64,000 nucleotides of DNA from assembly GCA_003223245.1 (NCBI GenBank), contig QHYI01000102.1:62001-126000 (forward strand), read 5' to 3'. The DNA is from Acidobacteriota bacterium (GTDB lineage Bacteria > Acidobacteriota > Terriglobia > Acidiferrales > UBA7541). A program made the translations under genes and the position numbers. Below, in pieces: positions 2,399-31,160 of this stretch. Within the stretch, counting starts at the first letter, position 1. Each line of letters begins with the position of its first letter. Below the pieces are notes generated by a model, which saw only the letters and a program-made list of their open reading frames with translations, made no database searches and was not told where the DNA came from.

Positions 2399-4282
2399 AT
2401 GCAGCTACGGCTGCGCACAAAATTCACCCTGGTGATGACCAGCCTCGTGCTGCTGGTCGTCGCCGTGTTGTCCTGCGTGTTCGCCGCGCAGCTCCTCGAA
2501 GAATTGATCAGCGAAACCGACAAGCGCGCCACGGACCTCGCCGTGCAAGTTTTCCTCCAGGCCAAGCACGCTCTGATGGAGGCCGCTCAGAAGGGCCTGC
2601 GCCCGGATTCCTATGATCCTGAGGAAATGCATGATTGGGTGCGCCACATGTTCGAAATCGACGAGGGCTTGCGCACTCAGTTGAGCGACGTCGTCAAGAA
2701 CCCTCTGATCTACGAGGTCTCCATCACCGATATCGATGGCTTGGTGCTCGCTTCAAGCGACCCAAGCCTCCCGGGTTCTTTTCTGCCACGCCGAACCCCC
2801 ATCTCCCAGCTCGAGGCTCGAGGCTTTCTGCACCAGGCAGGTGTTCTCCTGCGTACCATAAGAGGGGTCAAAAAGGGCCCTCAGTTGTTCGAAGTTGACT
2901 ATGCCTTCATCAACGCAGGTAAGCCATTCGGCGAAGTGCGCGTGGTCGTGGACTCGGAACTTCTCTTAGGACAAATCGAATCCAACCTGCGCTCCGGCGG
3001 AGCGATTGTGCTGGTGGCACTGGTCGTTTCCGCCTTGCTCGCCGCGTTCGTGAGCCGCATCACCCTTGCTCCCCTGCGTGACATCACCGCGCAGCTCGAC
3101 CGCATCTCCGCGGGTCAGTTTGACGCGCCTGCGGCTGACCCACCACGCCTGTCGGGGTGGGCCAGCAGCGATGAACTCGGCCTGATGAGCCGCAAAATTA
3201 CCCAGGTCGGGCAGCAGCTCCGCGGCGTGCACGAAATTTTCAGCACCATGCGCGAAAACATGAACTCCGTCATGGCCGGCCTCGAAGACGGCTTGCTTCT
3301 GTTCACGCGCGATGCGCGCGCCGTGATGGTCAGTCCGGCTGCCGAAAAATTTCTCGGCGCGCCAGCCAGCGAATTCCTCGGCCGCCGGGTCACCGACATT
3401 TTTCCGCCGGGCCACGCGCTGCGCGAGGCGCTGCAAATCGAGAACGACGAACTCCGGGAAATCGCCGCCGACGCCGACTTGGAGACGAGCGAGGGCCCCA
3501 AGCGCGTTAACGTCAGCGTGCAAGCCATCCAGGAAGCCGGCGAGCGCATCGGAGCTCTGGTGACCCTGCGCGACCTCGATTCGCTTGAAAGCATCGACAC
3601 GCAGCTTCGCGTGAGCGAACGCCTCGCCGCGCTCGGCCGCATCACCGCGGGCGTGGCGCATGAAGTCAAAAATCCGCTGAACTCCATGCGCTTGTGGCTC
3701 GAAAACCTCAAAGAATCCCTGCCGTATGATGGCGACGGCAATGCGCAGCAAGCCGTGCAAGTCTTGGACAAAGAGATTGACCGCCTCGACCAGGTCGTGA
3801 AGCGCTTTCTCGATTTTACCCGCCCCATGGAAGTGCGCCTGGAAGCTACGCAGCTCGCCGACCTCCTGAAAGAGGTTCTGGAAATCGCCAAACCTCAGTT
3901 GCAACAGTCCAACATCCAGCTCGCGCAACTTTTGCCGATCGATGTTCCGGAAGTGTATGTGGATCGCGCTTTGCTCAAGCAGGCCGTGCTCAATCTGCTG
4001 CTGAACGCCGCAGAAGCCATGCCCGACGGCGGCCAATTGCGCCTGGTGCTGAGCCGGCGGGGCGAAATGGCGGAAATCACCGTCGGCGACACCGGCAAAG
4101 GCATCCCGCCGGAAAACCAGCAAAAGATTTTTCAGTTGTTTTTCACCACCAGGCCGGGGGGCAGCGGAATCGGACTGGCCAGCACGTTCCGAATTGTGCA
4201 GCTGCACAACGGTTCGATAAACTTTACTTCGGAGGTTGGCCGGGGCACCACGTTCCGGATCGAATTGCCGCTCGCGGCCTAA
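2399..4282 (+). CDS. Membrane-bound sensor histidine kinase (HAMP-PAS-HisKA-HATPase)
   Basis: A 627-residue inner-membrane sensor. One membrane helix lies at about 10-30 and a second at about 201-220, enclosing a periplasmic sensing region of about 170 residues. A HAMP linker (about 218-270), a PAS domain (about 287-395), the dimerisation/phospho-acceptor helix with H421 in 'GVAHEVKNPLNSM', and an ATPase domain follow. The ATPase has its N-box at 'NLLLNAAEA' (N536), the G1 box 'GDTGKGIP' and the G2 box 'GGSGIGLA'. The layout resembles NtrB/AtoS-type kinases, which signal to sigma-54 activators, and the preceding regulator on the same strand is one. The ligand is unknown. ATG at 2399 is chosen because the first membrane helix follows directly. 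Confidence 0.93.
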   Translation: MQLRLRTKFTLVMTSLVLLVVAVLSCVFAAQLLEELISETDKRATDLAVQVFLQAKHALMEAAQKGLRPDSYDPEEMHDWVRHMFEIDEGLRTQLSDVVKNPLIYEVSITDIDGLVLASSDPSLPGSFLPRRTPISQLEARGFLHQAGVLLRTIRGVKKGPQLFEVDYAFINAGKPFGEVRVVVDSELLLGQIESNLRSGGAIVLVALVVSALLAAFVSRITLAPLRDITAQLDRISAGQFDAPAADPPRLSGWASSDELGLMSRKITQVGQQLRGVHEIFSTMRENMNSVMAGLEDGLLLFTRDARAVMVSPAAEKFLGAPASEFLGRRVTDIFPPGHALREALQIENDELREIAADADLETSEGPKRVNVSVQAIQEAGERIGALVTLRDLDSLESIDTQLRVSERLAALGRITAGVAHEVKNPLNSMRLWLENLKESLPYDGDGNAQQAVQVLDKEIDRLDQVVKRFLDFTRPMEVRLEATQLADLLKEVLEIAKPQLQQSNIQLAQLLPIDVPEVYVDRALLKQAVLNLLLNAAEAMPDGGQLRLVLSRRGEMAEITVGDTGKGIPPENQQKIFQLFFTTRPGGSGIGLASTFRIVQLHNGSINFTSEVGRGTTFRIELPLAA

Positions 4283-4286
4283 AATC

Positions 4287-4904
4287 ATGGTTAACCCAGC
4301 TCAGCACCGCGTTTGTCCCAGGCACTCCCTTCTCTATCGCAGCGCACCGGTTGTTTGCCTGACCTTTTCACTGACTTTGCTGATGAGCGGTTGCGTCATT
4401 CGGAGGAGACCGGCCGTCCCTTGGGCGACAGCCATCCAAGTACGCCCAACGCTCCCGCCCCAAGGCCCGGTATCGAACGAGGCTGACTTAGAAGCTCCGG
4501 AAATTAGCCTCGATCTGGAACCTCAGGCAGCATTGATGGTTCCCGTGCGCAGCGTCCCTCCGCGACCGCATGTGGCTCCCCCTCCTACTAGTCCAACTCC
4601 GGCATCGCCCCCGGCGGAGGCGGAAGAGGATAAGCCGCCGGCTCCCACGATCGCCACGCAACTTTCCAAGGCAGAATTCGCCGCCGCGCAACAGGAAACC
4701 AATGAAAGCCTGAGCATTGCCGAGAAAAATCTCGCGGCCACGCGCGGGAAAAAATTGAATCCCGCACAATCCGATTTGGTATCGAAGATCAAAGGCTTCC
4801 TCAAGGACGCGCGCGAAGCCGCGAAGGCCGGCGACTGGGCGCTGGCTCGCAACCTCGCCAAAAAAGCCCAGGTCCTCTCTGAAGAGCTCCTCCGCTCGGT
4901 GTAG
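4287..4904 (+). CDS. Putative lipoprotein of unknown function
   Basis: A 205-residue protein starting four bases after the kinase stop codon, so probably in the same transcript. An upstream in-frame start would overlap the kinase and is not preferred. The N-terminus carries a signal peptide ending in the lipobox 'LMSGC', with C36 as the expected lipidated residue. A proline-rich, probably unstructured stretch (about 80-125) leads to a helical C-terminal 85 residues rich in Ala, Lys and Glu, with two likely antiparallel helices. A member of the kinase signalling unit, or an envelope protein reporting to it, is an inference from position only. No named family was recognised. Confidence 0.7.
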   Translation: MVNPAQHRVCPRHSLLYRSAPVVCLTFSLTLLMSGCVIRRRPAVPWATAIQVRPTLPPQGPVSNEADLEAPEISLDLEPQAALMVPVRSVPPRPHVAPPPTSPTPASPPAEAEEDKPPAPTIATQLSKAEFAAAQQETNESLSIAEKNLAATRGKKLNPAQSDLVSKIKGFLKDAREAAKAGDWALARNLAKKAQVLSEELLRSV

Positions 4905-25615: not shown

Positions 25616-25720
25616 TTATGGCCATGGTCGCGAGGCGTGATGGATATGCAGGACTTCGATGGTTGCTCCTTGACCCGGTAGGCAGCGATGTAGCCGTGGG
25701 CCGAGAAATAGCGCCTGGGG
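25616..25720 (-). pseudogene. Remnant of a ParE/RelE-type toxin with a frameshift
   Basis: On the minus strand, 'YFSAHGYIAAYRVKEQ' continues, after a one-base frame slip, as 'IEVLHIHHASRPWP' and then a TAA at 25616-25618. This matches the C-terminal half of ParE toxins ('Y.i.YRV....v.vl.i.H.aR.WP'). The upstream half of the toxin and any antitoxin are absent. It fills the gap between cbs and the bifunctional methyltransferase gene. Confidence 0.5.
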
Positions 25721-25733
25721 AGCCAAGGGACGC

Positions 25734-27563
25734 ATGAAGATTCATGATTTCAATGAGCGGCTCAAGAACGCGATTCTCATCGCCGACGGGGCGATGGGCT
25801 CAATGCTACACGAAGCAGTGGGGCCGCAGCGGTGCTTCGACGAGTTGAACGCCACGGAGCCCGAAGCAGTCTTTCGTGTGCACCAGGAGTACATCGAAGC
25901 GGGTGCGCAGATCATCGAGACGAACACGTTCGGCGCGAATCGCTTCAAGCTCGGGCCGCTGGGGCTTGGCGATGAAGTGCAGCGGCTGAATAGCCGGGGC
26001 GTGAAAATTGCGCGCGAGGCCCGTGAGTCTGCTGCACGCGAAGTGCTGATCGCCGGTTCGATTGGGCCGCTGGGGCTCGGCGTGCAGGCGCGCCATCCGG
26101 ACGACAAAGAGATTCTAGACGTTTTTTACGAGCAAGCCCTGGCGCTGGAAGAGCGCGGCGTGGATTTCTACATCCTGGAAACTTTTTCCTACATTGAAGA
26201 GATTGTCCTGGCGGTGGACGCCATCCGCTCGTTTTCCGGTTTGCCCATCGTGGCGCAGCTAACGTATTCGGAAGAAGGCACGACGCACGGTGACATTCGT
26301 CCCACGGACGCGGCGAGGCAGCTGAAAAACAAAAATGTCCAGGTGATTGGCGCGAATTGCACGCTCGGTCCGCAGGCCTTGCTGCCGATCTTGCAGGAAC
26401 TTGCGGCTGTGGATGACATCCGCATCAGCGCCATGCCCAATGCAGGTTTTCCGAAGCGCGAAGGCGACCGCATCGTGTATCCGAAATCCTCGCCGGAATA
26501 CTTTGCGCTCTTTGCACGGGAGGCCGCCGCGCTGGGAGTGCGCCTTCTTGGGGGCTGCTGCGGGACGACGCCGGCGCACATTCATGCGATGGCGGAAGCG
26601 GTGAAGTCGCTGCGCCCGGCGAAAACGCATGCAGCATCACCGGTAGTGGAAACCGCAGCGAAGCCCGCGCCAATTTCGCAACGCGAGCCGGAAAGCCAGT
26701 TCTGGAAAAAGCTCAAGAAAAAAGAATTTGCCGTGTGCGTGGAAATCGATCCGCCGAAGGGGCTGTCGCTCGACCGCATCTTCGAACAGGTGGACAAAGT
26801 CATGGCTTCGCGCGAAGTGGACGCGATCGACATCAACAGTGGAGCGATGGCACGCGTGGGGATGGACGCGCTCGTGGTTGCGGGCGCGCTCGAGGCGCGC
26901 GGCGTGGAAACCGTGCCGCATCTCACTACGCGCGATCAGAACATCATTGGCTTGCAAGCGGCGCTGCTGGGCGCATGGACGGTCGGCGGCGTGCGCAACA
27001 TTCTTGCGATTACTGGCGACCCGCCTTCGGTCGGCGATTACCCGGAAGCGAGCGGCGTGTATGAAGTGGATTCGGTGGGGCTCGTGAAAGTATTGAACCG
27101 GCTGAATCAAGGGACAGATTGGGCGGGAAAAACGCTGGGCGGCGCGACGAATTTTGCCATTGGCGTGGCGCTTAATCCAATGGCCGATGACCTCGATAAC
27201 GAAATTGCGCGCTTCCGCGCAAAAGTAGAAGCTGGCGCGCACTTCGCGATGACCCAGCCCCTTTTCGACCCACAGCACTGGCACGCTTTTTTAAAAAAGC
27301 TTGGTGGCAAGCCGCCGATTCCGATTTTGATAGGCGTGTGGCCGCTCAACAGCTACAAGCAAGCCTTGCGCCTGAACAACGAAGTGCCCGGGATCATCAT
27401 TCCCGAGCCTTTGTTGAAATCCCTGGAGCGCGCCGGCGCGAACGCGCGCGATTGCGGATTCGCCGTTGCCCGCGACATGTTAGCTTGGGCGCGCACGGAA
27501 CTTGCAGGCGCGTACCTGATTCCGCCTTTCAAGCGCTACGAGGAAATCTTGGAAATCCTCTGA
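25734..27563 (+). CDS. yitJ: Bifunctional homocysteine S-methyltransferase / methylenetetrahydrofolate reductase
   Basis: A 609-residue two-domain enzyme with the architecture of B. subtilis YitJ. Residues 1-290 are a homocysteine methyltransferase barrel with zinc-binding C209 ('ANCTLGP') and C275/C276 ('GGCCGTTP'), and the start motif 'IADGAMGSMLHE'. Residues about 320-609 are a methylenetetrahydrofolate reductase barrel ('CVEIDPPKGLSLDRIFEQV', 'ILAITGDPPSVGDYPEASGVYEVDSVGLV'). One chain can thus make methyltetrahydrofolate and pass the methyl group towards homocysteine. The B12 and reactivation domains of MetH are absent, so the methyl donor route may depend on a separate protein. Confidence 0.9.
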   Translation: MKIHDFNERLKNAILIADGAMGSMLHEAVGPQRCFDELNATEPEAVFRVHQEYIEAGAQIIETNTFGANRFKLGPLGLGDEVQRLNSRGVKIAREARESAAREVLIAGSIGPLGLGVQARHPDDKEILDVFYEQALALEERGVDFYILETFSYIEEIVLAVDAIRSFSGLPIVAQLTYSEEGTTHGDIRPTDAARQLKNKNVQVIGANCTLGPQALLPILQELAAVDDIRISAMPNAGFPKREGDRIVYPKSSPEYFALFAREAAALGVRLLGGCCGTTPAHIHAMAEAVKSLRPAKTHAASPVVETAAKPAPISQREPESQFWKKLKKKEFAVCVEIDPPKGLSLDRIFEQVDKVMASREVDAIDINSGAMARVGMDALVVAGALEARGVETVPHLTTRDQNIIGLQAALLGAWTVGGVRNILAITGDPPSVGDYPEASGVYEVDSVGLVKVLNRLNQGTDWAGKTLGGATNFAIGVALNPMADDLDNEIARFRAKVEAGAHFAMTQPLFDPQHWHAFLKKLGGKPPIPILIGVWPLNSYKQALRLNNEVPGIIIPEPLLKSLERAGANARDCGFAVARDMLAWARTELAGAYLIPPFKRYEEILEIL

Positions 27564-29788: not shown

Positions 29789-30018
29789 TCAGTTCCAAAC
29801 CGAAGTCCGCGTCGCTCCATCTCGGTCGAACTCGTCGAGCACGGCGTTACTGAGCAAGGGTGACAGAGGTCCGCCTTGGGGCGTCCCTTCGTCCACCGCG
29901 CTCACCAGCCCGTCTTCCATGACTCCAGCTTGCAGAAACGCCCCGATCAGCTTCAACATCCGCTTGTCGCTAACGCGCTCGGCGATCTTAGCCAGGAGCC
30001 GGTCGTGATTAACCCGAT
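29789..30018 (-). pseudogene. Group II intron reverse transcriptase, central catalytic fragment
   Basis: Encodes 'RVNHDRLLAKIAERVSDK', 'LKLIGAFLQAGVMEDGLV', 'EGTPQGGPLSPLLSNAVLDEFDR'. These are RT domains 3-4 of LtrA-type proteins, with the invariant 'TPQGGPLSPLLSN'. The catalytic YADD box that should follow is missing; the frame ends at 29789 in unrelated sequence. The right end coincides with the predicted 3' end of an intron. Confidence 0.75.
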
Positions 30019-30026
30019 GGTGGGTA

Positions 30027-30105
30027 GGGACGGGTCTTGCGACTGTGTCGCTTGTGCTCGTCCCCCCTCGCAGAACCCGCCGAGCGGATTTCCCGCAACG
30101 GGCTC
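30027..30105 (-). ncRNA. Group II intron domains V and VI
   Basis: On the minus strand, 30105-30073 folds as a domain V hairpin: GAGCCCG pairs with CGGGTTC, an inner GCGG pairs with CCGC around a GAAAT loop, and the catalytic AGC triad is in place. Domain VI follows (30064-30027): GGGACG pairs with CGTCCC, with an inner GCGAC-ACA-GTCGC hairpin. The intron 3' end should lie at about 30020. This RNA part is far better kept than the protein. Confidence 0.6.
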
Positions 30106-30131
30106 CCCAGGTTGCTCTCGCTGGATGGCCG

Positions 30132-30357
30132 TCAGACCGTAGCATGGCGTGTCGACACCGCATAAGGTAGTTCGAACCAGGATTGACTCTTGAGATAGGA
30201 CCAGAAGAGTCGGTGTCGCTGACTCCGTCGTCTCAACGTACGGGCCCATTGCCGTTGTACCTCGCACCGGACCCCGTCAAGCTTCGGCTTGCAGTGATGC
30301 AATCCGAAATACTGGTAGAAGCCGCGCAGCATCATCACGAGTTGCTTTTGCCAAACT
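30132..30357 (-). pseudogene. Group II intron maturase C-terminal fragment
   Basis: Encodes 'LRGFYQYFGLHHCKPKLD' followed by 'RRSQRHRLFWSYLKSQSWFELPYA' and a TGA at 30132-30134. This is the usual end of the RT/maturase (domain X and tail). It is joined to the N-terminal piece in a different frame at about 30356, so about 300 residues were deleted between them. Confidence 0.7.
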
Positions 30358-30525
30358 CCTTCGTTGTCTCACCATCGACACCGCTCGCACCCCGCCGATT
30401 CATCTGCTTCCAGGTTTCCGTGAGGAACTTCGGTGTGAGCAGATGCGCCAGCGATGTGAAGCGTAGCTTCGGATTCGACTTCGCCTTCTTCGCGATCTGG
30501 TCCAGTTGTGTGGTTCGCAACCGCT
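30356..30525 (-). pseudogene. Group II intron reverse transcriptase N-terminal fragment
   Basis: Encodes 'LDQIAKKAKSNPKLRFTSLA', then 'LTETWKQMNRRGASGVDGET', the RT domain 0-1 segment of LtrA-type proteins. It begins immediately after the stop codon of the STAS gene, with no intron 5' RNA domains, so the element is 5'-truncated. Confidence 0.7.
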
Positions 30526-30528
30526 GCG

Positions 30529-30876
30529 CTACTTCGAAAAGCTGGCAACCGCCTCGGCTTCGGTGTTGTACACGTCGAAGACGGTCATCAGTTTGGTGAT
30601 CTGGAGCACTTCCTGGAATTTACTGCCGAGATGGCAGAGGCGCAGGCCCGCGCCCTGCGACTTGGCGCTGTGATGAGCCGCCACTAGCGTGCCCAGCCCC
30701 GCGCTGTCGATAAACGTGATGTTGTCCATGTTCAGGACAATTTTCTTTTTACCCGAGTTGATGAGGCCCTTCACTTTTTCGCGCAACGCGTTGCTTTCCT
30801 CGCCAAGCACAATGCGCCCGTCCAGCGCCACCACCGAGACGCCGTCCACTTCACGATTGGTCATCTTTAATGCCAC
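30529..30876 (-). CDS. STAS-domain anti-sigma factor antagonist
   Basis: A 115-residue cytoplasmic protein covering one STAS domain. The phospho-acceptor serine is S58 in 'FIDSAGLGTL', preceded by 'KKKIVLNMDNIT'. Proteins of this type (SpoIIAA/RsbV-like) release a sigma factor by binding an anti-sigma kinase when unphosphorylated. The start is GTG at 30874-30876, eight bases from GGAGG; a longer TTG start would read through the ribosome-binding site. No kinase or sigma factor gene is adjacent. The stop codon lies three bases from the group II intron remnant, yet the C-terminus looks complete. Confidence 0.85.
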   Translation of the reverse strand: MALKMTNREVDGVSVVALDGRIVLGEESNALREKVKGLINSGKKKIVLNMDNITFIDSAGLGTLVAAHHSAKSQGAGLRLCHLGSKFQEVLQITKLMTVFDVYNTEAEAVASFSK

Positions 30877-31160
30877 GTTAGTTTCCTCCTCGTCGAAAAG
30901 AGGTTCCGGCGGCAACCCCCATGCCGGAGCCGTAAGCTTACCAAATCAGGGTTAACCGGGAGCGATGAATCGTAATCGAAGACCTGCCAGCGGTCAAATC
31001 TCCACGAGGTCCCTCGCACCGCCGCGCCAGCGGTTCAAATATCCAAGCCCACCTCTGGGACCATCTTCCTCGGCCGCTACCATTTCGGCGCCGCGCGACC
31101 GGACTCCTTCTGTGTCTGCACTCGCCTTCTTTCTCGCCGCTTGTCACTCGCTACTGTGTT

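Follow-up and report, generated by a model that had tools for sequence, protein, structure and literature searches.

Some group II introns, including RmInt1 and other En-minus introns, encode a reverse transcriptase (RT) without an endonuclease and home into insertion sequences, which are a dispersed mobile-element target. The inner intron described here is like RmInt1 in having an RT without an endonuclease and in being specialised on another mobile element, but it targets RT genes of other group II introns and not a transposase gene. En-minus introns prime at replication forks (PMC4424553).

Nested group II introns have been described in Thermosynechococcus elongatus, where TeI3 introns are found within TeI4 introns, at one site inside RT ORFs that belong to related introns (Mohr et al. 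2010, PMC2882425). In both that system and the locus reported here, a bacterial group II intron occupies a conserved position within the RT ORF of other group II introns. The inner introns of T. elongatus, however, have no ORF, share their origin with the outer introns and lie between two start codons, so that RT can be made without splicing (PMC2882425), whereas the inner intron here carries its own RT, belongs to another class than most of the outer introns, cuts the RT in the motif-A region and is found in several RT types. Nested introns of Methanosarcina acetivorans (Dai and Zimmerly 2003) are presented in PMC4424553 and PMC2882425, and the former reviews nested homing with loss by recombination in Methanosarcina; as summarised there, the M. 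acetivorans case is archaeal and consists of related introns in nested arrays, while the present one is bacterial and involves several RT types at a homologous codon. The locus also resembles group IIC introns (bacterial class C, GsI-IIC), which contain the closest PDB match to its outer RT centre, and intact relatives of its outer intron lie after terminator-like hairpins; unlike GsI-IIC, the outer piece is a 222-nt fragment, which is all that the window holds of it.

Twintrons and homing into intron ORFs are already known from Thermosynechococcus and Methanosarcina. What is new is an En-less bacterial lineage that uses the conserved codon in motif A of several distinct types of RT. Within an incomplete coverage of the literature, no paper combining group II intron, twintron and Acidobacteria was found.

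Composition of the relic

The window, a stretch of 64,000 nucleotides from an Acidobacteriota contig, contains a scrambled relic on the minus strand (Table 1). A previous sequence-only reading had placed it at 30525-29789; the feature stands, and its exact limits were corrected to 30513-29797. The order of pieces that it had proposed was borne out: N-terminus of the inner RT (30513-30352), C-terminus of the inner RT with its stop codon (30351-30132), D5-D6 (30107-30019) and the centre of a second RT (30018-~29797). The N- and C-terminal pieces, which are too short for family models and were placed through their match to the congener G024, belong to the same (inner) RT, and the centre to a different RT type. 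The centre matched TIGR04416 with an E value of 1.5e-22 in the window profile search, and its best PDB match was the GsI-IIC RT (E 2e-21, over 65 residues), by which the RT of the outer element was taken as IIC-type. The outer-type RTs that resemble it most come from named MAGs, and these point to Acidobacteriota as the host phylum.

The junction reads CTACCCACC|AT CGG GTT AAT CAC, that is (D)RVNH, with the centre starting at the base that follows the intron end. The RT centre had been said to begin exactly at the intron end within FDRVNHDRL, and the junction indeed falls inside the Asp codon, FD|RVNHDRL. The inner 5' junction and the outer 5' exon are gone from the window, and nesting there rests on this one junction together with the relatives.

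Table 1. Features of the relic and of its upstream flank in the window.
Feature	Position	Strand	Basis
STAS-domain (anti-sigma-factor antagonist-like) gene, intact host gene upstream of the relic	30529..30945	-	ORF; orthologs 82-90% identical in congeners; STAS name from sequence, not family scan
Host intergenic 15 nt common to empty-site orthologs; relic begins directly after	30514..30528	-	G012/G014 alignment ends at window 30513
Inner intron RT N-terminus, codons 2-55; the whole upstream part (D1-D4) lost	30352..30513	-	98.8% over 162 nt to G024 C52 3756-3917
Deletion joint; 913 bp of internal sequence (G024 3918-4830) absent	30351..30352	-	Comparison with G024
Inner intron RT C-terminus (maturase/X region) to stop codon	30132..30351	-	G024 match; weak TIGR04416/GIIM matches
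Inner intron domain V hairpin	30072..30106	-	RF00029; conserved fold with covariation
Inner intron domain VI hairpin; the window copy has one broken pair	30022..30067	-	RF00029 and fold
Inner intron 3' end, ...CTACCCACC	30019..30021	-	Same end in G024, G244 and G363; CTACCATCC in G118; end restores exon reading frame
Outer (host) intron RT centre, which starts within the motif-A Asp codon, (D)RVNHDRLL, and stops shortly before YADD; frameshifted once close to its end	29797..30018	-	TIGR04416 positions 136-204; GsI-IIC RT best PDB match; at most 85% DNA identity to RT genes of related genomes

A covariance search with RF00029 matched 30107-30019 with 36.1 bits (E 2.9e-5), slightly below the gathering score of 40; the scores in three relatives of the inner intron were 37.5-44.3 bits. 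The D5-D6 consensus has 31 pairs, with compensatory changes in 4 of them among four close copies, and the window retains 30 of the 31; the pair at alignment columns 62-67 is broken or altered in other copies. The single-sequence z-score was -3.0 in the window versus -5.8 in G024. The RT is dead in both introns of the window, and so is the window copy of the inner intron, in agreement with the previous remark that D5-D6 are still folded while the protein parts are dead.

Elsewhere in the window, an open frame on the plus strand (25674-27563) reads, from its sequence, as a homocysteine S-methyltransferase / methylenetetrahydrofolate reductase fusion.

An intact copy and a clade found in RT genes

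A blastn search of 95 genomes of the order showed that contig C52 of G024 matches the relic over its first 162 nt (99%) and next 358 nt (93%), with 913 bp between; for the intron-only parts, identities were 98.8% (162 nt) and 94.9% (334 columns). This contig contains a complete inner intron, composed of a 5' end GTGCGCC, D1-D4 (RF02005, 131.6 bits), a 432-aa RT located within D4 (345 bits against TIGR04416, cut-off 300), D5-D6 and a 3' end CTACCCACC. Since the G024 match flanks the 913-bp gap, the window holds a copy of this intron that starts only at RT codon 2 and lacks C52 3918-4830, with a joint that shows no microhomology. The full-length G024 copy places each inner-intron segment of the relic, which is recent judging by its identity to that copy.

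The 5' exon in G024 ends in GATCTGGATCTCGAGAAATTTTTCG (DLDLEKFF + G) directly before the intron, and the 3' exon is the second half of an RT, (D)NVQH. Joined, the G024 frame reads FFD-NVQH, and the window would read FD-RVNH. Because the two G024 exons differ in RT type, the 5' one being of the IIC type and the 3' one of another, this locus is either recombined between two copies or chimerically assembled. The outer IIC-type intron of G024 has itself undergone internal deletions (L102 3090-3243): ahead of the inner intron it retains its 5' end, a small part of the D4/ORF and 25 nt of RT. At the end of another G024 contig (C123; L167 1-92), 92 nt identical to the inner intron lie beside a transposase-like coding sequence, which suggests a second, disrupted copy.

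A class-wide protein search (399 genomes) detected three more relatives at 68-92% identity, in G244, G363 and G118, giving a family of five members with RTs at least 68% identical. The inner RTs group in a single clade (support 100/99), and in the intact relatives no endonuclease domain follows the RT. G024, G244 and G118 contain the RF02005 match (124-132 bits) and the 5' end GTGCGCC (GUGYG-like) that were deleted from the window copy. No further member was found in overlapping draws, searched with a strict cut-off, of 396 genomes of the phylum, 39 of the G244 family, 11 of the G118 family, 300 of the G363 family, 237 of another family and an order of 257 genomes. IMG/VR gave no match to the inner RT or to the 3'-end pattern, and plasmids contained only relatives below 60% identity (best listed ~43%).

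The relatives are all from draft assemblies, in several of which a contig ends where the intron begins. Each of the five known copies lies in the RT gene of another group II intron. One homologous RT codon is the site of four of them, in four different RT types, with 3' exons reading (D)RVNH in the window, (D)NVQH in G024, (D)LLPH in G244 and (D)HISH in G363. The first residue after the junction corresponds to TIGR04416 position 136 in the window and G024, likewise in G244 by a two-residue extrapolation, and the G363 position is consistent with it. The fifth insertion, in G118, is at a different site, later on TIGR04416, where the 3' exon reads (Y)VLDEW. As all five inner copies are in RT genes compared with none of ~30 sister-family loci, RT-gene targeting appears to be a property of the inner clade, and this comparison is the main argument for it. 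Insertion into RT genes at a conserved codon would thus be a family habit and not a one-off event.

Other introns were observed near some of these loci. A further group II intron (RF02003, with a full RT) is found directly downstream of the interrupted RT in G244 (L141 77-1869), so that three intron types are stacked on that contig, and 300 bp from the sister locus L124 there is a separate intron that carries an RT. In G363 the copy breaks off at motif A of its own RT (L143 866-872, ..TTTAACCAC), a spot homologous to the usual target, and no other intron end was seen upstream.

The G118 locus spans two contigs, C82 and C123, which overlap by 149 identical nt. Across both, it contains the outer D1-D4, the 5' half of the outer RT, the inner intron and the 3' half of the outer RT, and the RT exons rejoin in frame as Y-V-L-D; it reads as a full twintron. 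The window keeps the 3' side of the nesting only, and both outer halves are present in G118. This bears on the possibility that two independent intron fragments were made neighbours by recombination or deletion and joined by chance with no nesting at all. Recombination between copies does occur, as G024 has two RT types around one inner intron, and the window is without its 5' half. The joint, however, coincides exactly with the 3' end of the intron and recurs at one RT codon across four genomes and four RT types, and the presence of both halves of one RT in G118 largely refutes a chance join; we regard it as improbable. Less probable still is an assembly artefact at repeated introns. The G244 and G118 contigs end at the 5' boundary of the inner intron, as expected for repeats, and the G024 exons are chimeric, but the window genome holds a single copy, the relic itself, and therefore no repeat that could cause a misjoin, and the same 3' junction was recovered in independent assemblies. 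A search of that genome for a second copy or donor found, besides the relic, only an intact sister-family intron (L001) and an RT fragment at a contig end (L002). Circular permutation, a known natural form of group II introns (PMC8637638) with D5-D6 before the rest, would account for D5-D6 lying upstream of RT coding sequence in a superficially permuted order, but its probability is negligible, given that the RT pieces flanking D5-D6 are of different types, that intact relatives show the normal domain order and that no D1-D4 of the inner class was found downstream of D6 in any copy. All three alternatives were rejected.

Host locus and proposed history

Orthologs of the STAS gene and of the downstream genes were found in six congeners without the relic, five of them with a short spacer between (that of G018 is longer). 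Several of these empty sites contain a hairpin followed by a T-run, for example GGGCACG...CGTGCCC and then TTTTTG, and no intron. In the closest empty-site congeners, the sequence resembles that of the window, on the side of the STAS gene, up to position 30513 and no further. The terminator-like hairpin present in the empty-site orthologs is missing from the window, where it was deleted together with the 5' end of the outer intron. The outer intron's intact relatives (L102, L105) start just past a hairpin and T-run. Because of the IIC-like RT, the position of the relatives after the hairpin and T-run, and the hairpin in the empty sites, the outer intron was probably located at the STAS terminator. 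Deletions would have removed this terminator together with the 5' parts of both introns. The orthologous empty sites also exclude scrambling of the order by local rearrangement. Among the genome-contig loci of the outer RT type that were covered, none was seen interrupted at FD|RVNH by the inner intron.

The window very probably contains the dead remnant of a twintron, in which an inner intron had inserted in the RT gene of an outer one before deletions occurred. The sequence-only reading had already proposed a 5'-truncated and internally deleted intron in the RT gene of another, and the intact G024 copy, the full G118 twintron and the empty sites all support it. In the proposed history, an outer intron with a IIC-type RT would first have been established between the STAS gene and its neighbour, where its remains are now observed, presumably by targeting the terminator. 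The inner intron, which is of a different class (RNA model D1D4-6, with an En-less RT), would then have entered the Asp codon of the FD|RVNH motif in the outer RT gene; the 3' junction of this insertion is present in the window, and retrohoming guided by EBS/IBS pairing could have produced it. Deletions, visible by comparison with G024 and the empty sites, would finally have removed the outer 5' part with the inner D1-D4, cut 913 bp out of the inner RT and taken away the 3' part of the outer intron.

The inner intron would represent a small clade targeting the RT genes of other group II introns. Such an insertion would disable the polymerase gene of a competitor unless the inner intron were spliced out; the exons are in frame across the junction, and splicing would restore the RT reading frame.

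Exon pairing and the intron's own RT gene

The EBS1 slot, located after CCGACGNNNT, was defined from 12 sister-family introns (RTs 42-47% identical to the inner RT), in each of which 5-7 of its 7 positions, counted by hand, pair with the 5' exon of the same intron. Pairing could be scored in G118 and G024 only, since the window and G363 are without both partners and the G244 contig is without the 5' exon. The EBS/IBS motif suggested for the inner insertion point was present in G118, where EBS1 CGTAGTG pairs with exon CATTACG at 7/7 positions, one of them G-U, and was partial in G024, where CGAATAT pairs with TTTTTCG at 5/7, four of them contiguous at TTCG; the window retains the 3' junction only. 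The weaker pairing in G024 may reflect its recombined 5' exon. As TTCG|A corresponds to the FD codon pair, the core pairing would fall on codons that RTs keep, which we consider a lead and not proof. G118 combines a changed EBS1 with a matching new RT site, and retargeting could be studied through it.

The motif of the inner RT itself is YFN (G024, G244) or YFT (G118), versus FFD in all 17 sister RTs scored (L102 4237-4246; L141, L142). YFN or YFT would remove a C-G pair beside the insertion site in the intron's own gene, a possible means of self-avoidance. Tentatively, and with a little less than even confidence, the lineage could be regarded as a hyperparasite of other group II introns, which would recognise the DNA for the near-invariant FD codons of RT motif A and spare its own gene through YFN/YFT. 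If so, it could invade many distinct RT genes, and this would be an example from bacteria in which selfish elements attack one another's polymerase gene, at a codon that the victim cannot easily change. The scrambled relic leads in this way to a testable model of an RNA-guided element with a broad but specialised target range that avoids its own gene.

Different exon preferences were observed among the sister introns. In L118, L119, L121, L132, L108 and L109 the 5' exons end in CTCCT or TTCCT and EBS1 reads AGGAG..., and these sites apparently lie antisense to Shine-Dalgarno sequences, a short distance upstream of start codons. The intact sister intron of the window's own genome (L001/L118) is among these inserters, and other sister introns have different EBS1/IBS1 pairs.
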